Source: Candidatus Desulfolinea nitratireducens (GTDB lineage: Bacteria; Chloroflexota; Anaerolineae; Anaerolineales; Villigracilaceae). Taken from it: DNA of 64,000 nucleotides. The stretch is from NCBI GenBank assembly GCA_014382535.1, contig JACNJN010000119.1, positions 1-64,000 of the forward strand, in the 5' to 3' direction. Below, piece after piece: positions 29,241 to 47,033 of this stretch (position 1 is its first letter; every line of letters begins with the position of its first letter). The position numbers and the translations under genes are program-made. The notes under the pieces were generated by a model. That model was not told where the DNA came from. It saw only the letters and a list, made by a program, of their open reading frames with translations, and did not search any database.

Positions 29241-30125
29241 ATGGAAGTCAAGCATAATATCTGGAGATCACTGGCAGAAAGATCTTTTGTAATTATCTTG
29301 TTAAGTGGGGTTTTGCTGACTGGATCTTTTTATCAGGCAACAGCATCCCCGAAACACCAATCCTCTGATGAGGGCCAGGGTATTTTTGAACAGAAATGCA
29401 TATCCTGCCATTCAATCGGCGGAGGAATAGTTGTTGGCCCTGATCTGGAAGGAGTATTGGATCGGCGCGATCGGGATTGGGTAGCCAGTTTTATCAGTGC
29501 CCCGGATCAAATCCTGGCAGATGGAGATCCAATCGCCACGGGTTTACTGGCTGAATTTAACGGCATCCCGATGCCAAACCTAGGGCTACCAGACGCAGAA
29601 GTGGAATCGCTGCTGACTTTTTTTGAAGGTGGTGAAAGTGTCGCTCCCGTTACCAGTGACCCTCTACCATCAGGAAAGATTAGCCGGGGTGAAGGGCTTT
29701 TTACCGGCGGAGAAGCATTTGACAATGGCGGTACACCTTGTATTGCCTGCCACACTGTTGGCGGTGTTGGTTTATTTGGTGGCGGCAGTCTGGGTCCTGA
29801 TCTGACCCATGTTTTCCAGCGATATGGAGAAGTGGGTTTAGCCAGTTCAATTCAGAATATTGCATTTCCCACCATGCAGGGTGTTTATGCTGAGAAAGCT
29901 TTATCAAACCAGGAAATCGCGGATTTATTGGCCTTTTTTGCAGCTGCTGATTCAGAGGGGAAAGAGGGCGTTGCTACCGGAGCCACCTCGTTATTCTGGG
30001 GTGCAGGTCTTTTGGGTGCCGGAGTACTTTTTGGAGTCATGGCATTTTTCTGGCCAAAACAACGAGAGAATCTATCAGATCGCTTGAGAAGAGATGCAGG
30101 GATCACTTCAAGGAGACACTCATGA
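29241..30125 (+). CDS. Diheme cytochrome c with C-terminal TM helix
   Basis: Two CxxCH motifs ([18 protein letters not shown]), N-terminal hydrophobic segment and C-terminal TM; ATGA overlap with narG. Confidence 0.88.
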
Positions 30126-33100
30126 AAGAATGGACTAAGGAAAAAGTTTCACCCACTGAGCGAAAATGGGAAGAGTTCTACCGCAATCGACACCAGCATG
30201 ATAAGCGGGTGCGAACCACCCATGGTGTAAATTGTACGGGTAGCTGTTCGTGGGAAGTATTCGTAAAAGATGGCATTGTCACCTGGGAAATGCAAGCCAC
30301 GGATTACCCTCAGTTGGAAGAGGGACTCCCACCCTATGAGCCGCGTGGCTGCCAGAGGGGGATCAGTTACTCCTGGTATCTCTACAGCCCCATTCGCGTC
30401 AAATACCCTTATGGGCGCGGAGCATTGATCGATCTCTGGCGGGAGGCTAAAGCCCTTCATGGAGATCCCGTCAAAGCCTGGGCAGCCCTGATGGAGGACG
30501 AAGATTCCCGGAAACGTTATCAGCAAGCCCGGGGCAAGGGCGGTTTTCGACGTATTTCCTGGGGTGAATCTCTCGAATTGATCGCAGCCTCCATGATCCA
30601 CACCACCAAGAAATATGGTCCCGATAGAGTGGCTGGCTTTTCCCCGATTCCGGCTATGTCGCAGATCAGTTATGCTGCCGGGAGCCGATTTATGAGCTTG
30701 CTGGGTGGCGTGATCATGAGCTTCTACGACTGGTATTGTGATCTCCCACCTGCCAGCCCTGAAATTTGGGGTGAACAAACCGATGTTCATGAGTCAGCCG
30801 ACTGGTTCAACTCCCGTTTTATCGCCGTGGTGGGATCCAATCTCAATATGACCCGCACACCTGACACCCATTTCATCTCAGAAGTGCGTCACGCCGGTGG
30901 TAAGCTGACGGTCTTTGCCCCAGATTTCTCACAGGTTGCCAAATACGCCGATTACTGGATTCCTGTCCATGCCGGACAGGATACTGCTTTCTGGATGGCG
31001 GTCAATCATGTGATTTTGACTGAATTCTATGTTCAGCGGCAGGTGCCATATTTTATGGATTACCTCAAGCAATACTCCGATATGCCCTTCCTGGTTCAGA
31101 TCGATGAGAAGAGACCGGGCAAATATATGCGTGCCAACAGAGTAGGCGAATACAAGGATGTTGAAAACGGTGATTGGAAACTGCTCATTTGGGATGAAAA
31201 GAGTGGGCGCCCCCGCATGCCAAAAGGCACGGTCGGCTTCCGCTGGGCAGAGAAGGAAAAGGGGAAATGGAATCTCGAACTAAAAGATGGTCTGACCGAT
31301 GAAGAGATTAACCCGCAATTGAGCTTTGCCGAATCCCACGACGAAGTTGTCGATCTTGAATTTGATGATTTCTCAACCAATACATCCAACGCACGCGGTG
31401 TGCCAGTACGTTATATTGAAACTGAGCAGGGCCGGATCGCTGTAACCACCGTTTTTGATCTTGTGATGGCTCAATTTGGTGTCAATCGTGGTCTGTCTGG
31501 TGAATATCCGGAAAGCTACGAAGATGAGGATGGTGTCTACACACCGGCCTGGCAGGAGAAATATACTGGCATCCACCAGGATACATGCATCCGTTTTGCT
31601 CGAGAGTGGGCCACCAATGGTGAAAAGACCAAAGGCAAGAATATGGTCATCATCGGTGCTGGGGCGAATCACTGGTATCACAACAATTTGCTCTATCGCT
31701 CATCCATTGTCGCATTGATGCTGACTGGTAGTGTGGGCGTCAATGGCGGTGGTCTGGCTCATTATGTAGGACAGGAAAAACTTGTCAATATCGGCTCCTG
31801 GGCCACCATCGCATTTGCTACTGATTGGGGGATGGCTCCACGCCAACAGAATACACCCTCTTTCCATTATGTGCACAGTGACCAATGGCGTTATGAGCGT
31901 GGTTATACCGCTTATGACGAATTGCCAAATAAGCCTGCAAGAGACCATACCATCGATCATCAAGTTCGTGCAGTGCGCCGAGGTTGGCTGCCCTTCTTCC
32001 CGCAATTTAAACGGAATTCAGTTGATGTGGTGCAAGATGCCCTTGACGGTGGTGCTAAAGATGATGCTGAGATTGTGAAATATGTTGTAGATCAATTCAA
32101 AGAAAAGAAACTCGATTTGGCGGTTGAAGACCCGGATGCTCCTGAAAATTGGCCCAGAGTATGGGTGATTTGGCGCGGTAATGCGATCGGCACCAGTGCC
32201 AAAGGACATGAGTTCTTCATGAAGCATTACCTGGGTACACATAGTACTGCCATCGCTAAAGAGCAAGCCTTGGGACATACCAGCGAAGTTGTTTATCACA
32301 AGCATGCACCAGAAGGAAAAATGGATTTGGTGGTGGATCTCAACTTCCGCATGGATACTTCGGCTTTATATTCCGATATCGTCCTGCCGGCTGCATCCTG
32401 GTATGAGAAAGATGATCTCAACACCACAGATATGCATACTTATATTAACCCCATGCAGGCAGCGGTGCCACCGGCTTGGGAATCCAAGAGTGATTGGGAT
32501 ATCTTCAAAACCCTGGCTCAAAAAGTAAGTGAGTTATCTGAAACACATCTTTCTGAACCGTTCAAAGATGTGGTTATGTTGCCGCTCCAGCATGATACGC
32601 CTGATGAGATTGCTCAACCCAGCGTGCAAGATTGGCAAAAAGGTGATGTCGAGCCAATCCCTGGTAAAACCATGCCTCATTTCAAGGTGGTTGAACGCGA
32701 TTATGTGAAATTGAGTGAGCGTTTTGTCAGCTTGGGCAAAGGCGTTGAGAAAAACGGGATCGCTGCCCACGGGTTGCGCATCCCTGTGGCAGATGAATAT
32801 CAATATCTTAAGCGTCAACAGCCCAGGACATTCGGCAAAAACCTGCCTGAACCTGGAGATGTTTACCCCTCCCTGGAGTTTGGACGGGAGGTTTGCGACA
32901 CAATTTTACGCCTGGATCCGGCATCCAATGGTGAGTTGGCCTATCGTGCTTTTGAAGCGGAAGAAAAGAAAACAGGACTATCCCTCACCGATTTGGCCGA
33001 AGGGACACGCTCAGCCCGTATCTCCTTTGCTGACATTATTAGTCAGCCCCGTCGAGTGTTGACAACCCCAACCTGGTCTGGATTAATCAATGAAGGCCGC

Positions 33101-33739
33101 GCGTATTCGCCTTTCACCCTGAATGTTGAACGCATGGTTCCCTGGCGGACGCTGACGGGACGACAACATTTCTATCTCGACCATGAAGGTTATCTGGATT
33201 GGGGTGAGCACCTGCCAGTCTACAAGCCGCGCCCTGATCACACCATGCTCGATGATACCGAGCGAAGTATGGCCGAAGCACAAGGCAAGATGCTCAACTA
33301 CATTACTCCGCATGGCAAGTGGAGTATCCACTCAACCTATTCTGATAACCATCGTATGATGACTCTCTCCCGGGGTAACTATCCGGTATGGCTCAATCAC
33401 AAGGATGCCGCAGAGATGGAGATCAAGGATAATGATTGGGTTGAACTCTATAATGATAACGGGGTCTTCGTACAGCGAGCCATCGTTTCTTCTCGCATCC
33501 CCAGCGGCACGGTATTTGTCTATCACGCTACCGAGCGAACGATAGGCATTCCGAAATCTCCGCTCCGAGGGAATAAACGAGCGGGTATGAACAACTCGTT
33601 GACCCGTGCTCGCCTCAAACCAGTGCTGATGTCTGGCGGTTATGCCCAGTTCACCTATGCCTTCAATTACTGGGGCCCTACAGGCGTCAATCGAGACACA
33701 TTCGTCTTCGTACGAAGGATCGAAAAGCCAGACTTCTAA
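30122..33739 (+). CDS. narG: Respiratory nitrate reductase alpha subunit
   Basis: '[34 protein letters not shown]', '[17 protein letters not shown]', C-terminal NarG motifs. Confidence 0.97.
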
Positions 33740-33812
33740 ATCATCCCTCAACCTCTCAACCCCGCCCCTTTCTCAGAAGGGGGCGGGGAGAGATTAAGGT
33801 AAGGAGAATTTT

Positions 33813-35321
33813 ATGAACGTACGTACCCATATGAGTATGATCTTCCACCTCGATAAATGCATCGGTTGCCATACCTGCTCAGTGGCATGCAAAAATATTT
33901 GGACAGACCGTAAAGGCGCCGAGTATATGTGGTGGAATAATGTTGAAACCCGCCCAGGGACAGGATACCCCACCCAATGGGAGAATCAGGAAGAATTTAG
34001 AGGGGGGTGGGAGAGAAAAAAGAATGGGCTCAACCTGAAGTTGCATACCCGTTTTCAGGGTTTACTCAAACTATTTTACAATCCGAGTCTCCCTGATCTG
34101 AGAGATTACTACGAACCCTTCACCTTTGACTATCAGAATCTGTTCAACTCTCCTCAAAAAGATGTGCAGCCTATAGCCGAACCAGTCTCTATGATCACAG
34201 GGGATCCCATCGATATTGAGACGGGACCCAACTGGGATGATGATCTTGGTGGCTCGAATGTCTACGCAAAAAATGATCCCAATCTGGAATCGCTTCCCGA
34301 GGAAGTTCGCGAGCAGATGAATGAACTGGAGCGCCTGGTATTCAATTACCTGCCCAGAATCTGCAATCACTGCCTGAACCCTGCTTGTGTGGCGGCCTGT
34401 CCCTCTGGCGCGATTTACAAGCGCGGAGAAGATGGCGTGGTTCTGGTCAACGAAAATAGCTGCCGCGCCTGGCGGATGTGTGTCGCAGCCTGCCCGTATA
34501 AAAAAGTTTATTACAACTGGTCAACGGGTAAATCCGAGAAGTGCATCCTGTGCTTCCCCCGCATGGAAACAGGGCAGGCTCCGGCGTGTGCACATTCCTG
34601 CGTTGGACGTATTCGTTATATGGGCGTGCTGCTTTATGATGCAGATCGAATTCCTGATGCAGCCGATGTTCCTGATGAGGAACTTATCGCGGCCCATCGA
34701 GAGATTATCCTCGATCCCCATGATCCGGAAGTGATCGCTGCGGCCAAGGCTAACGGAATCGATGATGGTTGGATTGAATCCGCTCAAAACTCCCCGGCCT
34801 ATAAGTTTGTCAAGGAATGGGAATTGGCCCTGCCTCTTCACCCTGAGTTTCGCACCATGGTGATGATGTACTACATCCCGCCGCTATCCCCGATTGTCAG
34901 CATAATAGAAAAGAATCTCTTCCGACTTGATTTGATGAATGAAGATTATGACTTCGAGTTATTCGACCGCCTCGACGCTGCTCGCCTTCCGGTCAAGTAC
35001 CTGGCAAATTTATTCACCGCGGGAAATGAGGGCATCATGCGTACTGTCTTGCGCAAACTATTGTCGGTGCGAATTTATATGCGCCGTAAGACAGTTGATG
35101 GTGTAGTTGACGATGTCGCCCTTAAAACGCTCGCAGATGCAGGCCTCACTGAAGAAGAAGCCATTGCAATCTATAAGATGACTGCTTTGCCAACTATGGA
35201 AGAACGTTTTGTTTTCCCGCCTTATCATCGCGAGATGAGTATTGAAGCTGGAATGGACCCATTGGCCCATAAAGGCGAAGCCGGTTTGGGATATATTCAA
35301 CAGCCGAAGAGAGGTTCATAA
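33813..35321 (+). CDS. narH: Respiratory nitrate reductase beta subunit
   Basis: 'HLDKCIGCHTCSVACKNIWTDRKGAEYMWWNNVETRPGTGYP', 'CRAWRMCVAACPYKKVYYNW' cysteine clusters. Confidence 0.97.
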   Translation: MNVRTHMSMIFHLDKCIGCHTCSVACKNIWTDRKGAEYMWWNNVETRPGTGYPTQWENQEEFRGGWERKKNGLNLKLHTRFQGLLKLFYNPSLPDLRDYYEPFTFDYQNLFNSPQKDVQPIAEPVSMITGDPIDIETGPNWDDDLGGSNVYAKNDPNLESLPEEVREQMNELERLVFNYLPRICNHCLNPACVAACPSGAIYKRGEDGVVLVNENSCRAWRMCVAACPYKKVYYNWSTGKSEKCILCFPRMETGQAPACAHSCVGRIRYMGVLLYDADRIPDAADVPDEELIAAHREIILDPHDPEVIAAAKANGIDDGWIESAQNSPAYKFVKEWELALPLHPEFRTMVMMYYIPPLSPIVSIIEKNLFRLDLMNEDYDFELFDRLDAARLPVKYLANLFTAGNEGIMRTVLRKLLSVRIYMRRKTVDGVVDDVALKTLADAGLTEEEAIAIYKMTALPTMEERFVFPPYHREMSIEAGMDPLAHKGEAGLGYIQQPKRGS

Positions 35322-35824
35322 TGGATAACTTTTCATTGTTTGCTCAAGCCTTGCGTTATCCCTTCCCTGGCCATATTGATACATTATCTACGCAGATTGC
35401 CCCCTTGGACGGTCAGCCTGGCAGCAAGGAGTTTGTAAAATTTCTGACGAAATTTCAACGGCTTTTACTCAGCGAGCAGGAAGAGCTCCATACCCGTACT
35501 TTAGACCTGACCCCCTTGGTGGCCCCTTATGTTGGGTATCAGATTTGGGGCGAGAGTTATAAGCGCGGTGAGTTTATGGCTGACCTTAGCCGCGAAATGA
35601 AAGCATATCAAATCGATCTGGAAGGCGAATTACCCGACCATCTGCGCCCGATCCTGCAATATCTCACAGCCTCATCGGCACCATTGCCAGAATTGATCGA
35701 AGTCCTCGATCAGGCTGTGAACACGATGCGTAAATCCCTGAAAAAAACTGAGGATAATAACCCCTATTTGCACTTGTTTGATGCGATCGCTAAGGCCTGC
35801 AAATCATTGCAGGTTGCAGCCTGA
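35321..35824 (+). CDS. narJ: Nitrate reductase assembly chaperone (NarJ/TorD-like)
   Basis: Position between narH and narI, 'LRYPFPGH', 'LPDHLRPILQYL'. Confidence 0.85.
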   Translation: MDNFSLFAQALRYPFPGHIDTLSTQIAPLDGQPGSKEFVKFLTKFQRLLLSEQEELHTRTLDLTPLVAPYVGYQIWGESYKRGEFMADLSREMKAYQIDLEGELPDHLRPILQYLTASSAPLPELIEVLDQAVNTMRKSLKKTEDNNPYLHLFDAIAKACKSLQVAA

Positions 35825-35860
35825 GGCCTGGAGCAAATCGAGAATTCTGGAGAGTAAATT

Positions 35861-36547
35861 ATGGACTGGAACCAACTATTCTTTGTTCTAATCCCCTACA
35901 TTTCGGTGACCCTGTTTATCGCGGTAACAATTTACCGTTCGATCTTCAGGCCCTTTACCGTCTCAAGTCTGTCATCCCAACTGCTGGAACGGAAAAAACT
36001 GTATTGGGGATCGGTCCCTTTTCACTATGGGATTGTATTGATTTTATTAACCCACCTCCTGGCTTTGATTTTCCCCAAAGCGTTGTTGCTCTGGAATGCA
36101 GTTCCTATTCGCCTCTATTTGCTGGAAATCAGTGGCCTTGCACTTGGCTTATGGGCTTTGGCTGGCGTGGTTTTATTGATTTATCGACGCATATCTGTCG
36201 CTTATATTCGGAAAGTGACTACGCCAATGGATATCGTTGTTCTCCTGTTGACATTGGTATCGATCATCACAGGAGTTCTAACCGCAGTTGGCTACCGTTT
36301 TGGTTCGACCTGGTTTACGGGTGTGTTTACGCCCTACCTCTGGTCGATCCTGACCCTGCAACCCCGCCCCGAGCTGGTTGCACCGCTGCCCTGGCTGATC
36401 CAATTGCACGTGCTCAATAATTTCATCTTGTTGGCGGTTTTCCCCTTTTCACGACTGGTCCATATCCTAACATGGCCATTGCATTACCTCTTTCGTCCCT
36501 GGCAAATTGTGATTTGGGTAAGAGAACGTCGTCAATTGGCGGAATAA
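35861..36547 (+). CDS. narI: Respiratory nitrate reductase gamma subunit (cytochrome b)
   Basis: 'FHYGIVLILLTHLLALIFP', 'LIQLHVLNNFILLAVFPFSRLVHIL'. Confidence 0.93.
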   Translation: MDWNQLFFVLIPYISVTLFIAVTIYRSIFRPFTVSSLSSQLLERKKLYWGSVPFHYGIVLILLTHLLALIFPKALLLWNAVPIRLYLLEISGLALGLWALAGVVLLIYRRISVAYIRKVTTPMDIVVLLLTLVSIITGVLTAVGYRFGSTWFTGVFTPYLWSILTLQPRPELVAPLPWLIQLHVLNNFILLAVFPFSRLVHILTWPLHYLFRPWQIVIWVRERRQLAE

Positions 36548-36568
36548 CAATATTTATTGAGGAGCATC

Positions 36569-38041
36569 ATGCAAGAAAAGAACACAGCCTACAGAGTTCT
36601 GGCTCTTAATACAATCGCATTTACCGTCTGTTTTGCAGCCTGGATGTTGAATGGCGTTTTGGTCACCTTCCTGGTGGATAACCGGATTTTTGACTGGAAT
36701 GCGGCTCAAATGGGCATGATGATCGGCATCCCGGTGCTGACGGGTTCGATCATGCGCCTGCCCTTGGGCGTGCTGACCGATAAATATGGCGGTCGGCCGG
36801 TTTACACTCTGCTGATGTTGCTCAGCGCCATTCCCATGTATATGCTGGGGCAGGCAAACTCTTATAACGAATATATGCTCTATAGCCTGGGTTTCGGCAT
36901 GACGGGTACCTCCTTTGCTGTTGGGATTGCCTTCAGTTCAGTCTGGTTTTCGAAGGAACGACAGGGAACTGCGTTGGGAATTTTTGGGGCAGGCAATGCC
37001 GGTGCCGCGCTGACCACTTTGGGTGCGCCCAGTTTATTGCGCTGGCTGACCAATAACGGAGAAAACCTTGATAACTGGCGTAAACTCCCGGCTTATTATG
37101 CTGCTGCATTGGTTGTGATGGCTGTGGTCTTTTATATGTTTACAACTAATCGCAAACCGGCTAACGGTCAACGTTCAATCATCCAGATGTTGGCACCGCT
37201 TAAGCAGGTGCGCGTCTGGCGCTTTGGGTTGTACTATTTCCTGGTCTTTGGCGGTTTTGTGGCTCTGGCGCAATGGTTGGTGCCCTATTATGTCAACGTT
37301 TATGCGATGACAATCGTGACAGCCGGGCTGCTTACCTCGATCTTCTCGCTGCCTTCAGGGATTATCCGGGCACTTGGCGGCGTTTTGTCGGATAAATTTG
37401 GCGCTCGGTCCGTAATGTATTGGGTCTTCGGAATTATTGCCTTATGCTGCTTCCTGTTGTTCTTCCCCAAAATGGAAATTGAATCCCCGGGTAGTGGTGT
37501 GATGGCTCAGCGTTCAGGAACAGTTACTGCCCTTTCTGCAAGCGAAATCCAGGTGGATGAATTGACCTATCCCCTGATCCCCAAAGTGGAAGTTAACTAC
37601 GAGGATGATGCTGTCATCTTGCTGCCCAAACTAAACACCTGGCAGGAATCTAACGTAGAGGTTGGAGATCAGGTTGCCAAGAAAGAATTATTGGCTAGCG
37701 GTGTCACGCATATCTACTTCCAGGCCAATGTTTGGGTATTCACTTTTTTTGTATTCGTGATTGGAATCGCGATGGGGATTGGCAAGGCCGGTGTTTATAA
37801 ATTTATTCCCCAATATTTTCCAACCGAGGTCGGTGTCGTGGGCGGGATTGTCGGTGTGGTCGGCGGCCTAGGCGGATTCGTCAGCCCATTGATTTTTGGA
37901 CGCTTGCTACAGTCGATTGGGTTGTGGACCACGACCTGGATATTTTTCTTCGTCTTCACAATGGTCTGCCTGATCTGGATGACCCTGGTTGTGCGGAAAA
38001 TTTCAAAAAAGGATACTCGTATTGAAGTAGCGGGATCCTGA
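36569..38041 (+). CDS. NarK-type MFS nitrate/nitrite transporter with inserted soluble domain
   Basis: MFS motifs 'RLPLGVLTDKYGGRPVY', NarK-like 'GAGNAGAA'; hydrophilic insert MAQRSGTV...IYFQAN. Confidence 0.9.
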   Translation: MQEKNTAYRVLALNTIAFTVCFAAWMLNGVLVTFLVDNRIFDWNAAQMGMMIGIPVLTGSIMRLPLGVLTDKYGGRPVYTLLMLLSAIPMYMLGQANSYNEYMLYSLGFGMTGTSFAVGIAFSSVWFSKERQGTALGIFGAGNAGAALTTLGAPSLLRWLTNNGENLDNWRKLPAYYAAALVVMAVVFYMFTTNRKPANGQRSIIQMLAPLKQVRVWRFGLYYFLVFGGFVALAQWLVPYYVNVYAMTIVTAGLLTSIFSLPSGIIRALGGVLSDKFGARSVMYWVFGIIALCCFLLFFPKMEIESPGSGVMAQRSGTVTALSASEIQVDELTYPLIPKVEVNYEDDAVILLPKLNTWQESNVEVGDQVAKKELLASGVTHIYFQANVWVFTFFVFVIGIAMGIGKAGVYKFIPQYFPTEVGVVGGIVGVVGGLGGFVSPLIFGRLLQSIGLWTTTWIFFFVFTMVCLIWMTLVVRKISKKDTRIEVAGS

Positions 38042-38223
38042 TCGGGAAGCCTGCTTAACGGGATGGGTTGTCATTTGGAAAATCGCTCACTAATTAATGG
38101 TGGCAAGCCTAAATTTAGTACGCCCCATATTTATTCATATCCAAAGTAGAAGATTATTACCTGGTCCATCGTTTTGCAATGAAAAGTGAATCAATATTTC
38201 TTTGCAAAAGGTAAGGAGAAAAT

Positions 38224-39750
38224 ATGTCAAGCTATATTGAAAAATGGGATGTTGAAGATGAAAGTTTTTGGGAATCAACAGGAAAAAAGATTGCCGCGCG
38301 CAATCTCTGGATTTCCATCCCCAGTTTATTATGCGCTTTTGCGGTTTGGTTGGCATGGAGCGTAATTACTGTCCAGATGAAAAATATGGGTTTCCCCTTT
38401 GACACGGTACAGCTTTTTACCTTATCAGCAATTGCTGGCTTGTCGGGGGCAACGCTACGTATTCCAAACTCCTTCCTGATTGCGATTGCCGGTGGAAGGA
38501 ACGTGATTGCACTAACAACTGCCTTGTTGATGGCCCCAACTTTGGGTTTGGGATTTGCCTTGCAAGACATCAACACCCCCTTTACAACTTTTGCCATTCT
38601 CGCTGCTCTCTCTGGCTTGGGTGGTGGAAATTTTTCTTCGTCGATGTCTAATATTAATTTCTTCTTCCCGAAACGGATGCAAGGAACTTCTTTGGGATTG
38701 AATGCTGGGCTTGGCAATATTGGCGTGAGCATTATGCAAATACTGATCCCCTTTGTTGTAACCTTCAGCCTTTTCGGGGCAATGGGTGGTGAAGGATTAT
38801 CTGTTAATGGCGGGATGTCTTATATCCAAAACGCTGGTTTTGTGTGGGTTCCCATTTTGCTTGTACTTGTTTTGGTTGCCTGGTTTGGGATGAATAATCT
38901 TTCAACAGCTACGCCAAATCTTGGCTCAACCTCATCGGCATTATTTAAAATCCTGGGTTTGGTTGGAGTCGGGGGCGTAGGTGCTGCGATTGGTCTCTAT
39001 CTTTTGCTTGGCTTGGAACTCAATATGTGGCTTGTTTTACCCGTGACCATTCTCGTTACAGTCTTGATGATGAAGGTGATCCCTGGTGAAATTAAATCAA
39101 ATTTGGATACCCAATTTGCGATTTTCAAGAATAAACATAATTGGATTATGACCTATCTATACACAATGACTTTCGGCTCTTTTATCGGATATTCAGCCGC
39201 TTTCCCATTGCTTATTCGCGTGGTCTTTGGCGAACTGCCTGATGGCAGCATTAATCCCAATGCCCCCAATCCCTTTGCTTATGCCTGGCTTGGACCTCTG
39301 GTTGGTTCCCTGGCCCGACCGATTGGTGGTTGGATTTCAGACAAAGTGGGCGGTGCAAAAATCACTCAATGGGATACGGTTGTGATGATCTTGTCTACGC
39401 TGGGCGTTGCTTATTACGTCAAGCAAGCCAGCGCATCCAGCCAGCCAGAACAGTTCTTCATCCCCTTCCTGCTTCTCTTCCTGGTCTTGTTTATCACCAC
39501 AGGAATTGGTAACGGCTCTACCTTTAGAATGGTTCCCATCATCTTCAAGCCCTCAGAAGCAGGTCCCGTTTTAGGCTGGACTGCGGCAGTTGCCGCTTAT
39601 GGTGCTTTTATTATCCCAAGAGTATTTGGTCAGCAAGTGAATGCCGGAACACCAGAATTTGCTTTATATGGTTTTGCGGTCTATTACTTTACTTGTTTAA
39701 TTCTGAACTGGTATTATTACGCCCGAAAAGGGGCAGAAATTGAGTGCTAA
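38224..39750 (+). CDS. NarK-type MFS nitrate/nitrite transporter
   Basis: 'GLNAGLGNIGVSIMQILIP', 'FGSFIGYSAAFPLLI', 'GNGSTFRMVPIIF'. Confidence 0.92.
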   Translation: MSSYIEKWDVEDESFWESTGKKIAARNLWISIPSLLCAFAVWLAWSVITVQMKNMGFPFDTVQLFTLSAIAGLSGATLRIPNSFLIAIAGGRNVIALTTALLMAPTLGLGFALQDINTPFTTFAILAALSGLGGGNFSSSMSNINFFFPKRMQGTSLGLNAGLGNIGVSIMQILIPFVVTFSLFGAMGGEGLSVNGGMSYIQNAGFVWVPILLVLVLVAWFGMNNLSTATPNLGSTSSALFKILGLVGVGGVGAAIGLYLLLGLELNMWLVLPVTILVTVLMMKVIPGEIKSNLDTQFAIFKNKHNWIMTYLYTMTFGSFIGYSAAFPLLIRVVFGELPDGSINPNAPNPFAYAWLGPLVGSLARPIGGWISDKVGGAKITQWDTVVMILSTLGVAYYVKQASASSQPEQFFIPFLLLFLVLFITTGIGNGSTFRMVPIIFKPSEAGPVLGWTAAVAAYGAFIIPRVFGQQVNAGTPEFALYGFAVYYFTCLILNWYYYARKGAEIEC

Positions 39751-39868: not shown

Positions 39869-40510
39869 ATGAACGAACTCGAATATTTTTTGGCAGAATC
39901 TGTATCCCGTCACAACTCTCTTTGCCCGCGGCAGGTGCTAGGGGTTCGGATCGGGTTGGCAGGTGCAGGTGCCCTGGGAATTGATGTGCCCCGCGAAGAT
40001 AAAAAGTTGCTTGTAATTGTTGAAACTGATGGGTGCTTTGTCTCTGGGGTGGAAGTTGTTACTGGCTGCGCTGTCAGACACAGAACCCTCCGCGTGGAAG
40101 ATTATGGCAAGGTGGCGGCCACTTTCGTAGATGTGGAAAGCGGTCACGCAGTGCGTGTTGCTCCTCGCCTGGATATTCGCCAGCGTGCAAAGGACTATGC
40201 CCCTGATGAAAAGCAACGATATTCCGCTATGCTAAAGGGCTATCAACGCATGCCAACGGAATCTTTACTTTCAGTTGAGAAGGTCAGCTTATCAGAGCCC
40301 GTCGAATCGATTGTGAGCCGTGCAGGTATTCGCGTAAATTGCAGTACCTGTGGGGAGGAAATTATTAACGAACGTGATATTATTATGGCAGGTCGTACCT
40401 TATGCCGACCTTGTGCAGGTTCGATCTATTACAAATCCCCTAAATCCTATAATTTTGGTTATAATTTGCTGCCTTCAAATTTATTGGTAGACGACACAGC
40501 AAATGAATAG
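39869..40510 (+). CDS. FmdE-family protein with C-terminal C4 zinc finger
   Basis: 'RHNSLCPRQVLGVRIGLAGA...VETDGCFVSGVEVVTGC' FmdE pattern; 'CSTCGEEI...CRPC' zinc finger. Confidence 0.85.
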   Translation: MNELEYFLAESVSRHNSLCPRQVLGVRIGLAGAGALGIDVPREDKKLLVIVETDGCFVSGVEVVTGCAVRHRTLRVEDYGKVAATFVDVESGHAVRVAPRLDIRQRAKDYAPDEKQRYSAMLKGYQRMPTESLLSVEKVSLSEPVESIVSRAGIRVNCSTCGEEIINERDIIMAGRTLCRPCAGSIYYKSPKSYNFGYNLLPSNLLVDDTANE

Positions 40511-40521
40511 AGGAGTACTAT

Positions 40522-42594
40522 ATGACTTTTAAATATCAAGTTACCGTCCCTGGAATTGACGATTGGCGAGACATGATTTCTTGTCAGGCTGCATGCCCGG
40601 TTAATACAGATGCACGAGGTTATGTTACAGCAATGGCTCGCGGTGAAATGGAATTGGCTTTTGAAATCTCGCATGATCCAAATCCACTCTCAACGATCTG
40701 CGGTCGTATTTGCGGTGCACCCTGCGAAGTTGCCTGCCGTCGCGGAGCTGTTGTCAGCCCTGATGCAGAACCGGTGGCTATTCGCCCAATCAAACGCGTA
40801 TTGACAGAGCGCTATGGACCAGAAGCCGGAAAAATAGTACCCAGTCGGGAAAAGCTAAAGGATCTGATTCCAATTAATTCTATTATCCCGGAAGAGGGCT
40901 TACCGACATTCTCATCCCACATGGGTAAATTTGGTGAACAAGCCACTGTTCCTGGTACTGGAACGTCCCTGGATTATTCATCCTCACGCTGGTCTCGTAG
41001 AGAGTTGAAGCGATTAGCTTCCCACCCCGGGCGTAAAAAAGGAAATATTGCGATCATCGGTGCTGGCCCGGCCAGTCTGACAGTTGCCCATGATCTGGCC
41101 TTACTACGATATAAAGTTACGATCTATGAAGGTGGCCCAAAAACCGGTGGTATGTTGCGCTATGGTGTCCCAATTTATCGTATTGATCAGGAAGCGATGG
41201 ATCTGGAAATCCAGGAGATACTCGACCTTGGTGTTGAGATCCATTTTAATACACCGATTGGTAAAAAGATCACCCTCGATGATTTGCGTCGGGACTACGA
41301 TGCCGTCTTTTTGGGTATCGGGTTGATGAAAGGTCACGCCCTGGATATTGAAGGTTCTGACCTTGATGGTGTCATCATCGCCGTAGATATGTTGCTCAAC
41401 TATAATCTTGGATACAAGGTTGATCTTGGCAAGCGAGTGTTGGTGATAGGCGGCGGCGATGTGGCTATGGATGCTGCCCGTACAGCCTTGCGCATGGGTC
41501 AGATGACGGATGAGCAAAGAGCTGCTTTGGATGATGCGGATGCCCGTGCGGAAGACGAATCCGAATCTGTCAGCACTGCATTGGATGTGGCCCGCGTGGC
41601 CCTCCGCTTGGGTGTCGCCGATGTCAAGATGATTGCCCTCGAAGATTGGGATGAATTACCCGCAACCCCCTTCGAAATCGAAGAAGCCTTGGAAGAGGGT
41701 ATTCAAATGTCCCCACGTGTGGGCCCAAATCGGATTATTGGAAAAGATGGAAAAGTCACCGGTCTGGAAGTGATCGATGTTGAATCCGTCTTCGACGAAG
41801 ATAAGCGTTTTAATCCAAAATTCAAGGCCGGTACCGAACGTGTCTGGGATTGTGATACCGTTATTTTGGCTATCGGTCAGAAAGCCGATCTGGATGTACT
41901 CGGTGGCGCAGACGATGTCAAGTTGACACCGCGAGGTCTGGTGGAGATCAACTTTGAGAACGGTCAGACTACTGCTCCGGATGTTTTTGCAGGTGGGGAT
42001 GTGGCCTATGGCCCTAAACTGATCATTGATGCTGTGCTCCACGGCCATTTAGCTGCCCTTGGCATTGAAGAATACGTCCAAAACAAGAAACTTAAAACTG
42101 AGGTCAAAACTGAGTGGACAGTACTCTCAAACCATGTCATGTTTGAAAACTGGACCAAACTCGAACACCGCAAACCTCCTACACTCCCTGTAGATCGACG
42201 TACTGGAATTTCGGTAGTTGAAGTTGGTTACTCAGAAGCGGAAGCCGCAGCAGAGGGCAGTCGCTGTTTGGAATGTAGTGTCAACACGATCTTCGATGGA
42301 TCAGAGTGTATATTATGCAATGCTTGTGTTGATGTGTGCCCCTGGGATTGTCTAAAAATTGTCAGCCTTGACCAGCTTGCCGGTGATGAAACCCTGCATC
42401 AGGTAGTGGAAGAGCATACCGGAGTTCCGCTAATTGAGATTACAGAAGGTCATGATGTAACCACTCAAATGGCTGCAATGCTCAAAGATGACGAAGCCTG
42501 CACCCGCTGTGCTTTATGCGCTGTACGCTGCCCAACCGATGCCATCACCATGGAGGCATTTCGGTTTGAAGAAGAATTAACCCTTATAGATTAA
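40522..42594 (+). CDS. GltD-like FAD/NAD(P) oxidoreductase with extra ferredoxin domains
   Basis: 'CQAACPVNTDARGY', 'IAIIGAGPASLTVAHDLA', 'VLVIGGGDVAMDAARTALR', C-terminal 'CILCNACVDVCPWD' and 'CTRCALCAVRCPTDAI'. Confidence 0.92.
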   Translation: MTFKYQVTVPGIDDWRDMISCQAACPVNTDARGYVTAMARGEMELAFEISHDPNPLSTICGRICGAPCEVACRRGAVVSPDAEPVAIRPIKRVLTERYGPEAGKIVPSREKLKDLIPINSIIPEEGLPTFSSHMGKFGEQATVPGTGTSLDYSSSRWSRRELKRLASHPGRKKGNIAIIGAGPASLTVAHDLALLRYKVTIYEGGPKTGGMLRYGVPIYRIDQEAMDLEIQEILDLGVEIHFNTPIGKKITLDDLRRDYDAVFLGIGLMKGHALDIEGSDLDGVIIAVDMLLNYNLGYKVDLGKRVLVIGGGDVAMDAARTALRMGQMTDEQRAALDDADARAEDESESVSTALDVARVALRLGVADVKMIALEDWDELPATPFEIEEALEEGIQMSPRVGPNRIIGKDGKVTGLEVIDVESVFDEDKRFNPKFKAGTERVWDCDTVILAIGQKADLDVLGGADDVKLTPRGLVEINFENGQTTAPDVFAGGDVAYGPKLIIDAVLHGHLAALGIEEYVQNKKLKTEVKTEWTVLSNHVMFENWTKLEHRKPPTLPVDRRTGISVVEVGYSEAEAAAEGSRCLECSVNTIFDGSECILCNACVDVCPWDCLKIVSLDQLAGDETLHQVVEEHTGVPLIEITEGHDVTTQMAAMLKDDEACTRCALCAVRCPTDAITMEAFRFEEELTLID

Positions 42595-42611: not shown

Positions 42612-43367
42612 ATGAAGAAACTCAAAGATTTCATTGTCAATTCCCGTGTTTGGAGATCTTTCTTCCGCCACGGATGGCCTGACAATCCATTGGATCGTTC
42701 CCTGATAATGACGACCAATGTCTTTTTCCATTTGCATCCAGTACGGGTAAATAAAAGGAGTATCAAAGCCCTATATTCTTTTGGCCTGGGTGTGATCACA
42801 ACGATCATGTTTGTAGTACTTTCAATCACAGGTATACTGGAAATGTTTTATTATGTGCCATCTGTCGATACGGCCTATTTTGATATCATCACATTGCAAA
42901 CACAGGTACCTTTTGGACAGCTATTGCGTAATATGCACCGCTGGTCTGCCCACTTAATGGTCCTCACGGCAGTCTTGCATATGGTGCGCGTATTTTATAC
43001 CGGCGCATATAAACGCCCCCGTGAGTTTAACTGGGTTGTTGGTGTTGTTTTGCTTATCCTGACGCTAGGCGCCAGCTTTACCGGATATTTGCTCCCCTGG
43101 GATCAACTTGCATTCTGGGCCATTACAGTGGGGACAAGCGTGGCTGGTTACGAACCCATGTTTGGAAAATTGATCCAAAAATTATTACTTGGTGGCGCTG
43201 AAGTTGGGCAAGCCTCGCTAACACGTTTTTATGGCCTGCATGTCATGGTTATTCCAGGCCTCTTGTTATTAATTATCTCCCTCCATCTCTGGCGTGTCCG
43301 CAAAGATGGCGGGCTGGCTGCCAATGAAGTAAAAGACGAGATTGAAACGGAGGTGGAAAATGCCTGA
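42612..43367 (+). CDS. Cytochrome b N-terminal domain (b6-like) of a bc complex
   Basis: 'LLRNMHRWSAHLMVLTAVLHMVRVF', 'GYLLPWDQLAFWA', 'FYGLHVMVIPGLLLLIISLHLWRVRKDGG'. Confidence 0.95.
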   Translation: MKKLKDFIVNSRVWRSFFRHGWPDNPLDRSLIMTTNVFFHLHPVRVNKRSIKALYSFGLGVITTIMFVVLSITGILEMFYYVPSVDTAYFDIITLQTQVPFGQLLRNMHRWSAHLMVLTAVLHMVRVFYTGAYKRPREFNWVVGVVLLILTLGASFTGYLLPWDQLAFWAITVGTSVAGYEPMFGKLIQKLLLGGAEVGQASLTRFYGLHVMVIPGLLLLIISLHLWRVRKDGGLAANEVKDEIETEVENA

Positions 43368-44142
43368 TAATAATATTCCTGAAGAAAATAAAAGTTTTTC
43401 GCGATCATCCAAAAAAACCTATAGCCTTGTTGAAATCGTAAAAGCCCCCACCACGATGGTGGACAAAGGCCCGGAAGATACGATCTTTGCCTTTCCAATT
43501 GTTGCAATCCTGGAATTAATGCTGGCCATTGGCTCTACCCTGGTTTTGGTCATATTCTCGCTACTGAAAGATGCCCCTCTTGAGGAGTTGGCAAACCCCC
43601 TGATTACAACTGACCCGGCAAAAGCACCCTGGTATTTTATGGGTTTGCAGGAAATGCTGGAACATATGCACCCCACCCTGGCAGGTATCATTTTGCCTGC
43701 GCTGGCAGTAGGTTTCCTGATCTCTATCCCTTATATTGACTACAGTCGTGAGGGAGCAGGGGTTTGGTTTACCTCAAAGCGCGGCAAAAGCATTGTTGGC
43801 TGGACTGCATTGTATACCTTGGTTGCCATGACAGGCTTCGTTTTGGTGGATAACGCCTTTCCACCCCGTGAGCTGCTCCGGGACATGCTGCCAAACCTCG
43901 TTACCCAATCGCTAATTCCAGGGGCTGTGATGACCTTCCTGGTTGTCTTGCCCTTGTTGGTACTCTGGCGCTCAAAGGAAGGCATCAAAAACGCTAGAGA
44001 AGTGATGCTGGTTTTATTCACAGTTCTTTTCATTACGGCTGTCGTGCTGACATTAACGGGCTTCTTATTCCGTGGCCCCGGATTTGAACTCTACTGGCCC
44101 TGGGCAATGCCCAATGGATACAATCCCATGGATGGTTTGTAG
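43360..44142 (+). CDS. Cytochrome b C-terminal domain (subunit IV-like)
   Basis: 'ADPAKAPWYF'-type motif (TTDPAKAPWYFMGLQEMLEHMHP), TM helices; overlaps the upstream gene. Confidence 0.88.
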   Translation: MPDNNIPEENKSFSRSSKKTYSLVEIVKAPTTMVDKGPEDTIFAFPIVAILELMLAIGSTLVLVIFSLLKDAPLEELANPLITTDPAKAPWYFMGLQEMLEHMHPTLAGIILPALAVGFLISIPYIDYSREGAGVWFTSKRGKSIVGWTALYTLVAMTGFVLVDNAFPPRELLRDMLPNLVTQSLIPGAVMTFLVVLPLLVLWRSKEGIKNAREVMLVLFTVLFITAVVLTLTGFLFRGPGFELYWPWAMPNGYNPMDGL

Positions 44143-44174: not shown

Positions 44175-44672
44175 ATGACTAATCAAACTGATACACAAGA
44201 AAAAAGCAAAGTAAGCCGCAGACAATTTCTGGGATTTGCCTGGCTGACCGCAATTGTTGCCTTTACAGGCGAAACTCTGGCTGCCCTGTTTAAATTTGTT
44301 CAACCTGTCACTGCCGGGGGCTTTGGCGGTATTATAAAAGCTGGAAAAGTGGATAAATTTGCACCCGGGAGCGTGACCTATTTCCAACAAGGACGTTTCT
44401 ACCTGCACCGTCTTGAAGATGGCAGTTTCCTTGCCCTTTGGCAGCGTTGTACACATCTCGGATGCAGCGTACCCTGGGAAGAATCTGAAGATCAATTTCA
44501 CTGCCCTTGTCATGGATCGTTATTCAGCAAAGTTGGAGTGGTAGCGGGTGGGCCAGCGCCTCGTCCAATGGATTATTTTCCCGTCATCATTGAAGAGGGC
44601 GAAGTTCTTGTAAATACTGAGAGCCCAATCGAGCGGAAAGCGTTCGATTCAACACAAACAACACCCGCGTGA
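44175..44672 (+). CDS. Rieske iron-sulfur protein
   Basis: 'RCTHLGCSVPWEESEDQFHCPCHGSLFSKVG', N-terminal 'SRRQFLG' Tat-like segment. Confidence 0.95.
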   Translation: MTNQTDTQEKSKVSRRQFLGFAWLTAIVAFTGETLAALFKFVQPVTAGGFGGIIKAGKVDKFAPGSVTYFQQGRFYLHRLEDGSFLALWQRCTHLGCSVPWEESEDQFHCPCHGSLFSKVGVVAGGPAPRPMDYFPVIIEEGEVLVNTESPIERKAFDSTQTTPA

Positions 44673-44681
44673 GGAGAAATC

Positions 44682-47033
44682 ATGCTACGAAACGAAAATT
44701 ACGATAAACAAATTCTCATCGGGTTGGTCATTACTGTTATTCTAATTGCCAGCTTTTCATTCCTGATGTTTGGGGAAGATGGTCGTATTGTTAGCGATAC
44801 AGAGCTTCAAAAAGAAGAAAGTATTGAACATGGGCAGGCAATCTATGCAGAGAATTGCGTTGCTTGCCATGGGGCAAATGGTGAGGGAGTTTCTGGCCCT
44901 GCACTAAACGATTTGAACCTTCTTGAGAAAGCAAGCGATGGTGTTTTATTTGCCACGATTCAAACCGGACGCCCCAACACTGCCATGCCAGCCTGGGGGC
45001 AGGTTTATGGTGGTGCATTGACAGATGAGAATATACATGCTGTCGTCAGTTTCATCCGATCTTATGAGGAGAATGCTTCAGAAACTGGGAGTAGTCAGCT
45101 AGATTTATATGGCGATGAGCTGGCTGCACAAGCCTTTAAAAAAGGTGGCTGTGGTGCCTGCCATACAATCCCAGGTATAGCTGGTGCTGTTGGTACGCTT
45201 GGCCCCGATCTTTCTGAAATCGGAAAAATGGTTGAAGGCCGCATTCAGGATGGTGAGTACACTGGAAATGCAACGACAGTAGAAGGATACATGGCCGAAG
45301 CGCTTGAGGATCCGAATGCCTTTGTCGCCCCAGAATGCCCGACAGGGCCGTGTCAAAAAGATTTGATGCCATCCTTCTCTGGGACGTTTAGCACTCAAGA
45401 AATCGAGTCAGTGATAAGCTATTTGGCAGATCTTCCTGATGGCGCTGCTGCTCTAGAAACTGAAGAGGGTACTATAACCGTAGGTCCAGGTCCGGAACTC
45501 ACGGATGAAGAATTTACCTGGGCAAAACAGGAATTCTTTGAGCGCTGTGCCGGTTGCCATGGTACTTTACGCAAAGGAGCTACGGGGCCTGCGCTGACAC
45601 CTGATTTGACACAGCCACAAGGAACGATTGCACTTTCTGCCATCATTTTCAATGGCACACCGCGTGGTATGCCAGATTGGGGTAAACAAGGTGCCTTAAC
45701 GCAAGAAGAAACTGAAGTTATGGCGAAATATCTGCAAAATGAGCCCCCCATACCACCAGAGTTATCTCTGGAGCAGATGCTTGAGACCTGGAAGGTACTT
45801 GTTGAGCCGGATGATCGGCCGACATCTCCGCAAACGACACGCGATTGGGAAAATTATTTCGTCGTTACCTTACGTGACGCCGGACAGGTGGCTGTGATCG
45901 ATGGGGATACATACGAAATCGTGAATACTGTCGACACTGGCTATGCTGTTCACATTACCCGAATGTCGGCTACCGGACGTTACGCCTATGTGATTGGGCG
46001 CGATGGCAGGCTGGCCCTGGTTGATCTGTGGATGGAAGTACCGGATAAAGTTGCCGAAGTACAACTCTGCTATGATGCCCGCTCAGTGGAAGTTAGTAAA
46101 TACGAGGGTGAAGAAGGTGATTTCACCGATAAATACGCTGTTGTAGGTTGCTATTGGCCGCCGCACTTCGCCATTTTGGATGGAGAAACACTGGAACCAT
46201 TCAAGATCATCAGCACACGTAGTTATACCTACGATACAGAAGAGTATCATCCCGAACCGCGCGTGGCGAGTATTCTGGCCTCTCACTTTAAACCGGAATG
46301 GGTCATCAATATTAAAGAGACCGGGCAAGTCTGGATTGTAAACTATGCTGATCCCATTAACCCAACCATCAAAATGATCGAAGCTGAACGCTTCCTCCAC
46401 GATGGTGGCTTGACTATGTCTAAACGCTATTTCATGGTGGCTGCCAACCAGGCCAATAAAGTCGCAGTGATTGACTTGTTGGAAGGAAAACTTGAAGCCT
46501 TGGTTGAGACTCCGGCAATCCCACACCCCGGCCGGGGTTCAAACTGGATGGATCCTGATTATGGCCCAGTCTGGAGTTCTTCTCATCTTGGTGAAGCCGC
46601 AGTGAGCTCCATAGGTACTGATCCAGAAGGACACCCGGATTCAGCCTGGAAAGTAGTGCGCACAACACCCTTGCCTAGTGCGGGTAGCTTATTTATCAAG
46701 ACGCATCCTAACAGCCAATGGGTTTGGGTGGATATGGCTCTGAATTCTGATCCGGCTTTATCTCGGACGGTCTGTGTTTTTGCCAAAGCCAAGCCAGAAG
46801 AAACACATAAATGTTGGGAGATCGCCGACTATGGTCGCGCTGTCCACATGGAATACAACAGACAAGGAACCGAAATTTGGATCAGTGTTTGGGGTAGCGC
46901 AGATAAGCCAGGTGAGACAGGTGAGATTGTGGTTTATGATGATGCAACGCTGGAAGAAAAAGCACGCATCCCGGATTTGATTACACCAACCGGAAAATTT
47001 AATGTATATAATACTGTACATGACGTTTACTAA
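44682..47033 (+). CDS. nirS: Membrane-anchored fusion: three cytochrome c motifs plus cytochrome d1 nitrite reductase (NirS-like)
   Basis: N-terminal TM; CVACHG, CGACHT, CAGCHG; d1 domain 'DAGQVAVIDGDTYEIVNTVDTGYAVHITRMSATGRYAYVIGRDG', 'EYHPEPRVASILASHF', 'AERFLHDGGL', 'HPGRGSNW', 'TPTGKFNVYNT'. Confidence 0.95.
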   Translation: MLRNENYDKQILIGLVITVILIASFSFLMFGEDGRIVSDTELQKEESIEHGQAIYAENCVACHGANGEGVSGPALNDLNLLEKASDGVLFATIQTGRPNTAMPAWGQVYGGALTDENIHAVVSFIRSYEENASETGSSQLDLYGDELAAQAFKKGGCGACHTIPGIAGAVGTLGPDLSEIGKMVEGRIQDGEYTGNATTVEGYMAEALEDPNAFVAPECPTGPCQKDLMPSFSGTFSTQEIESVISYLADLPDGAAALETEEGTITVGPGPELTDEEFTWAKQEFFERCAGCHGTLRKGATGPALTPDLTQPQGTIALSAIIFNGTPRGMPDWGKQGALTQEETEVMAKYLQNEPPIPPELSLEQMLETWKVLVEPDDRPTSPQTTRDWENYFVVTLRDAGQVAVIDGDTYEIVNTVDTGYAVHITRMSATGRYAYVIGRDGRLALVDLWMEVPDKVAEVQLCYDARSVEVSKYEGEEGDFTDKYAVVGCYWPPHFAILDGETLEPFKIISTRSYTYDTEEYHPEPRVASILASHFKPEWVINIKETGQVWIVNYADPINPTIKMIEAERFLHDGGLTMSKRYFMVAANQANKVAVIDLLEGKLEALVETPAIPHPGRGSNWMDPDYGPVWSSSHLGEAAVSSIGTDPEGHPDSAWKVVRTTPLPSAGSLFIKTHPNSQWVWVDMALNSDPALSRTVCVFAKAKPEETHKCWEIADYGRAVHMEYNRQGTEIWISVWGSADKPGETGEIVVYDDATLEEKARIPDLITPTGKFNVYNTVHDVY

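Follow-up and report, generated by a model that had tools for sequence, protein, structure and literature searches.

Within the window, the 64,000-nucleotide stretch of contig JACNJN010000119.1 from Candidatus Desulfolinea nitratireducens that was analysed, a cytochrome cd1 nitrite reductase (NirS) is preceded by three heme c domains, the first of which, together with a membrane anchor, is traced by homology to the triheme cytochrome c of a Rieske/cytochrome b complex. This NirS probably takes the place of the c-type output subunit in a Rieske/cytochrome b complex of its own, the whole forming a dedicated, membrane-bound menaquinol:nitrite oxidoreductase (probability roughly 0.78). It is the Rieske/cytochrome b operon beside NirS, which an earlier sequence-only reading of the gene had not mentioned, that gives the fusion its meaning. 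The domains and genes concerned are as follows.

44682–47033, forward strand: triheme-c NirS (cytochrome cd1 nitrite reductase) fusion, 783 aa (open reading frame, Pfam, phmmer, Foldseek)
44700–44768, forward strand: N-terminal helix anchoring the protein in the membrane, residues 7–29, a homologue of the triheme cytochrome c anchor in the Rieske/b complex
44817–45074, forward strand: C0 cytochrome c domain, CVACH at 59–63, Met102 as candidate ligand (alignment)
45078–45107, forward strand: fusion junction and low-confidence linker, about residues 133–142 (end of homology; pLDDT <50 at 135–142)
45114–45437, forward strand: C1 cytochrome c domain, equivalent to the published Chloroflexi C1, CGACH at 157–161, CPTGPCQ insertion, Met229 as candidate ligand
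45507–45737, forward strand: C2 cytochrome c domain of NirS, CAGCH at 289–293, Met330 (alignment)
45843–47015, forward strand: heme d1 propeller with His424 (d1 ligand) and His615 and His635 (catalytic pair) (Pfam, alignment)
44175–44672, forward strand: Rieske [2Fe-2S] subunit, CTHLGC...CPCH (Pfam, motif); closest solved structures from Kuenenia, 9rk4 and 9rk3
43342–44142, forward strand: subunit IV-like protein, the C-terminal half of cytochrome b (homology)
42612–43367, forward strand: four-helix cytochrome b6-type protein with heme-b ligands His109, His123, His210 and His225 (homology, residues)
40522–42594, forward strand: NAD(P)/FAD/FeS oxidoreductase subunit, NfnABC/GltD-like (homology)
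39869–40510, forward strand: FmdE-like zinc-finger protein, syntenic (homology)
36557–39750, forward strand: two NarK-type nitrate/nitrite transporters (36557–38041 and 38224–39750; homology)
30122–36547, forward strand: narGHJI respiratory nitrate reductase (homology)
29241–30125, forward strand: diheme cytochrome c immediately before narG, with a hydrophobic C-terminal segment (sequence)

The open reading frame of the fused NirS is intact and in frame, and its three CxxCH motifs (residues 59, 157 and 289) lie ahead of the d1 propeller as the sequence-only reading had described, including the CPTGPCQ insertion in the second domain (residues 219–225) and the CAGCHG domain preceding the propeller. 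A Pfam search, which that reading had suggested, returned Cytochrom_D1 across residues 388–778 (E = 3e-129) and Cytochrome_CBB3/Cytochrom_C over the N-terminal part. An AlphaFold2 model built from 60 sequences (pLDDT 89.5) placed three c domains between the N-terminal helix and the propeller; the linker at the fusion junction is flexible, and confidence was low at residues 135–142 only. The earlier assignment to NirS rather than NirN or NirF was borne out by phmmer against the PDB (P. aeruginosa NirS, 627 bits; NirN, 129; NirF, 41) and by Foldseek comparison of the model (52–54% identity to NirS, 25% to NirN, 19% to NirF), values that rule out NirN/NirF on the basis of similarity. The d1 pocket is likewise retained: the d1 ligand His182 of P. 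aeruginosa NirS aligned with His424 and the catalytic pair His327/His369 with His615/His635, and the pocket residues were strictly conserved over six of six divergent fusions. By sequence and fold the protein is a genuine NirS, with a predicted nitrite-to-NO activity.

The first c domain had been read as cbb3/CcoP-like, a view that was not upheld. In many other Anaerolineae, a standalone cytochrome of ~380–410 aa, usually triheme, comes after the four genes of the neighbouring complex, and its anchor and first c domain align over the entire N-terminus of the triheme NirS. By pairwise scores, C0 was closest to the first domain of this standalone triheme cytochrome among all classes tested, and C1 and C2 were closest to 2-heme NirS (C1, 55–62% identity to the 2-heme NirS C1). 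Across the anchor and C0, identity to the unfused triheme cytochrome c of congeners was 64–80% in the window's genus (64–66% for the window protein itself) and 64–70% to the unfused cytochrome in a second lineage, and in both lineages the homology ended just past the first c domain. Congeners carry the unfused operon with its standalone triheme cytochrome, the two versions of the operon occur together in one genome (G004), and in other relatives the 2-heme NirS is a separate gene. A CcoP/cbb3 origin was rejected because C0 matches the opening domain of the standalone triheme cytochrome far better than any other class tested, and the shared anchor leaves little doubt. These comparisons show, at the level of homology, a derivation of the N-terminal helix and C0 from the triheme cytochrome c of the Rieske/b complex, and of C1–C2–d1 from the Chloroflexi 2-heme NirS.

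A C1–C2–NirS arrangement, with one extra c domain before the usual C2–d1 and the His kept, was previously described in Chloroflexi (Schwartz et al. 2022, PMC8756737), so two of the three c domains are already published; the earlier reading had remarked that one c heme is usual for characterised NirS. The fused NirS shares C1, C2, d1 and the conserved His with these proteins and differs in its C0 and its Rieske/b-derived transmembrane anchor, neither of which is described there (PMC8756737); with a further c domain ahead of C1, and only C0 being new, the architecture is a new variant of the published one. The published neighbourhoods list no Rieske or cytochrome b gene (PMC8756737), and the 2-heme NirS relatives in this analysis, which mostly look like lipoproteins, have no such operon beside them. 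Compared with the canonical cytochrome cd1 NirS of Pseudomonas and Paracoccus, the C2–d1 unit (52–54% identity) and the catalytic His pair are the same, whereas two extra c hemes, a membrane anchor and a Rieske/b operon in place of the nir operon distinguish the fused protein. No paper was found that brings nirS, Rieske and Anaerolineales together, in a search that had most subscription papers and all preprints outside its reach.

Two further groups of NirS-like proteins were seen among relatives. One group of 2-heme NirS (L206, L208, L211, L214 and L215) carries an extra N-terminal domain (YILTT...FLGVxxxINGxxNPxL) that is probably the cupredoxin variant of PMC8756737; NirS seems to have exchanged its electron-input end repeatedly. 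Divergent one-heme NirS-like proteins from other Anaerolineae families (L104–L112, e.g. L107:7519–9393; PF02239, E ~1e-71 to 1e-81), several of whose genes adjoin FmdE, NarX/NarL-like and NarGH-like genes, may form a cd1-like family of their own.

The fused NirS is the last gene of a tight operon in which it follows, in order, the oxidoreductase (40522), the cytochrome b6-type protein (42612), subunit IV (43342) and the Rieske protein (44175), with 9 bases between the Rieske stop and the NirS start (44682) and without any other c1 or f subunit. The oxidoreductase matches NfnABC structures (9bov/9bp5), and the cytochrome b6-type protein contains no Cys, so a b6f-type (covalent) heme cn is not expected. 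The unfused Anaerolineae operon (L143–L167, L323–L330) shares with it the four upstream genes, the anchor and the first c domain, but ends in the triheme cytochrome of ~380 aa instead of NirS, often with a heme-copper oxidase-like gene nearby. Besides the NirS fusion, the window's own genome held no standalone triheme cytochrome of the Rieske/b type. Upstream of the operon and on the same strand are narGHJI, two narK and the FmdE-like gene (39869–40510), a gene that recurs near narK and nirS across lineages (also L207, L211, L252 and L287). As a separate observation, the own genome has four separate cytochrome b loci (C94, C122, C148 and C166), whose output partners, c-type or otherwise, all differ: the triheme NirS, a 630-aa protein, a diheme protein and a seven-heme 702-aa protein.

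The same triheme architecture occurs in five further MAGs. Searches of the class (396 genomes), the order (400) and the phylum (400), together with a scan of a GTDB contig collection, yielded no triheme NirS beyond these six among the best-scoring loci, part of the NirS matches having been inspected. All sources being MAGs, a chimeric gene created by metagenome assembly was considered; the same in-frame fusion in six MAGs from several projects and two sequence lineages led to its rejection, leaving it a very small probability. Where a NirS locus had 3 kb or more of upstream sequence, Rieske/b genes adjoined the triheme NirS in 6 of 6 cases and other NirS in 0 of 69 (Fisher value, 5e-9, which ignores the relatedness of the loci and is not readable as a probability). 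One of the six loci (G002, BB38) has an intact NirS but lacks cytochrome b and the oxidoreductase, and of subunit IV and Rieske only frame-broken remnants persist; the broken operon (L036:8900–10328) adjoins a 494-bp repeat, and the breakage may reflect decay or misassembly.

On sequence evidence, the fusion arose at least twice, since approximately unbiased (AU) tests rejected a single fused clade for the anchor and C0 (p = 2e-12; 0.0019 in a first set), for C1–C2–d1 (p = 0.0017) and for the operon core of cytochrome b and subunit IV (p = 3e-8; 1e-87 with Rieske and fewer rows). The same tests, on both halves and the operon core, reject one fusion that later spread. In the trees, the first lineage corresponds to the window's genus and the second to G055 and G531, which fall beside the unfused operons of G055's genus, and in its NirS part G055 pairs as sister with the 2-heme NirS from a congener, G042. 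Gene conversion may have occurred in genus g1, because the C0 of G002 and the cytochrome b of G004 group with unfused copies. That the same join was made twice argues for a selected function, and the two independent fusions suggest that the cell may plug nitrite reduction directly into the complex, with no soluble electron carrier.

In the proposed mechanism, menaquinol would be oxidised at the Qo site of cytochrome b/Rieske, the first electron would pass from Rieske through C0, C1 and C2 to d1, and nitrite, supplied by the upstream NarGHJI and NarK, would be reduced to NO at d1, at the membrane surface. The second electron would travel via the b hemes and either return to quinone (a Q cycle, contributing to the protonmotive force) or enter the NAD(P)/FeS module. 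Judging from the fusion and the operon, NirS would physically assemble with the Rieske/b complex. The menaquinol:nitrite reading is favoured because of the homology and order of the operon, its unfused counterpart, the ancestry of C0, the 6 of 6 association, the two origins and the retained His, as well as the own genome's lack of an alternative standalone triheme cytochrome, the layout of the model (anchor, three c domains, propeller) and the Kuenenia Rieske proteins as top PDB matches. Counting against it are the intact NirS with a broken Rieske/b operon in G002 and the failure to find NirF, curated NirJ or NOR in the own genome. Alternatively, C0 could be a mere tether and generic heme relay, NirS being fed, as in other Chloroflexi, by diffusible cytochromes or cupredoxins and the adjacency of the operon a by-product of the fusion's origin. 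That 2-heme NirS work without such an adjoining operon, and that G002 retains NirS despite its broken one, fits this explanation, yet the remaining five loci keep the operon, as do both independent lineages, and no other such cytochrome in the own genome could serve the complex; it is judged unlikely.

Among known systems, the Rieske/b complexes of Kuenenia with an NAD(P) module (Kuste4569–4574 and Kustd1480–1485; PMC12954380) are the nearest analogue of the menaquinol:nitrite complex. Shared are a b6-like cytochrome b with four heme-b His, subunit IV, a Rieske protein, whose nearest solved relatives are Kuste4569 (9rk4) and Kustd1480 (9rk3), and an NfnABC-like NAD(P) oxidoreductase, Kuste4570 having been reported with the NfnABC fold (9bp5 homologue; PMC12954380). 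Kuste4569–4574 also has a proposed nitrite-reducing partner (PMC12954380). In Kuenenia, the c subunits are hexa- or octaheme and the reductase is HAO-like and separate, whereas here NirS is covalently fused to the c subunit and cytochrome b has no Cys for heme cn. A nitrite-driven formation of NAD(P)H, as yet unproven, has been put forward for these anammox complexes (PMC12954380), and a similar bifurcation would be a more specific form of the menaquinol:nitrite reading, so that the confidences given to the two overlap: driven by nitrite reduction via Rieske and C0, the other quinol electron would be sent by way of the FeS/FAD subunit to make NAD(P)H and would not enter a Q cycle. The parts shared with the Kuenenia complexes speak for it, and the proposal and its potentials are published (PMC12954380); however, the oxidoreductase also occurs in unfused operons, some near a gene with a heme-copper oxidase motif, and is thus not specific to NirS, and the missing Cys in cytochrome b is a further point against. 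Bifurcation is held possible, with the odds somewhat against it. The full combination, one menaquinol:nitrite oxidoreductase complex that evolved twice by fusion of NirS to a Rieske/b c subunit and couples the reduction of nitrite to NO to a bifurcated formation of NAD(P)H, is put forward still more tentatively.

The sequence-only reading had also held that the protein should be catalytic, which stands for the pocket but is less certain for the host. The biosynthesis set for heme d1 (NirF, NirJ, NirDLGH), a pathway requirement of the host and not a feature of the NirS protein, was not found as such in the own genome (completeness, 97.9%). This genome (C208, C65) has a single PF02239 gene, and therefore no NirF or NirN was found in it, PF02239 (the Cytochrom_D1 Pfam family) being the family to which NirF also belongs; matches to curated NirJ were far below the cut-off (best, a TIGR04053/AhbD-like radical SAM protein), and siroheme decarboxylase gave only a match below the cut-off. 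Other NirS-bearing Anaerolineae likewise show only one strong PF02239 gene. NOR was not found in the own genome, and its sole COX1-family gene is an oxygen reductase and not an eNOR, because it has the oxidase Tyr (SHPAVY). Together these observations could mean that the fused NirS is not a working NO-forming reductase here, heme d1 not being makeable, and that it has another role or obtains d1 from outside. That account is improbable against the strict conservation of d1-pocket residues in six divergent fusions, the siroheme synthesis genes of the own genome and the published Chloroflexi C1–C2–NirS genomes, most of which also lack NOR (PMC8756737).

In the textbook view, NirS is periplasmic and takes its electrons from diffusible cytochromes, so that the step from nitrite to NO contributes to energy conservation only by an indirect route. 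That NirS was joined covalently to the output heme of a Rieske/b complex on at least two independent occasions speaks strongly, on genetic grounds, for direct coupling; the fusion adds to the denitrification of Chloroflexota and shows how respiratory complexes receive terminal reductases. So compact a system makes it testable whether nitrite reduction can power the synthesis of NAD(P)H by such complexes, and a bifurcating NirS complex, if true, would provide a cd1 equivalent of the mechanism that has been proposed, though not proven, for anammox bacteria.
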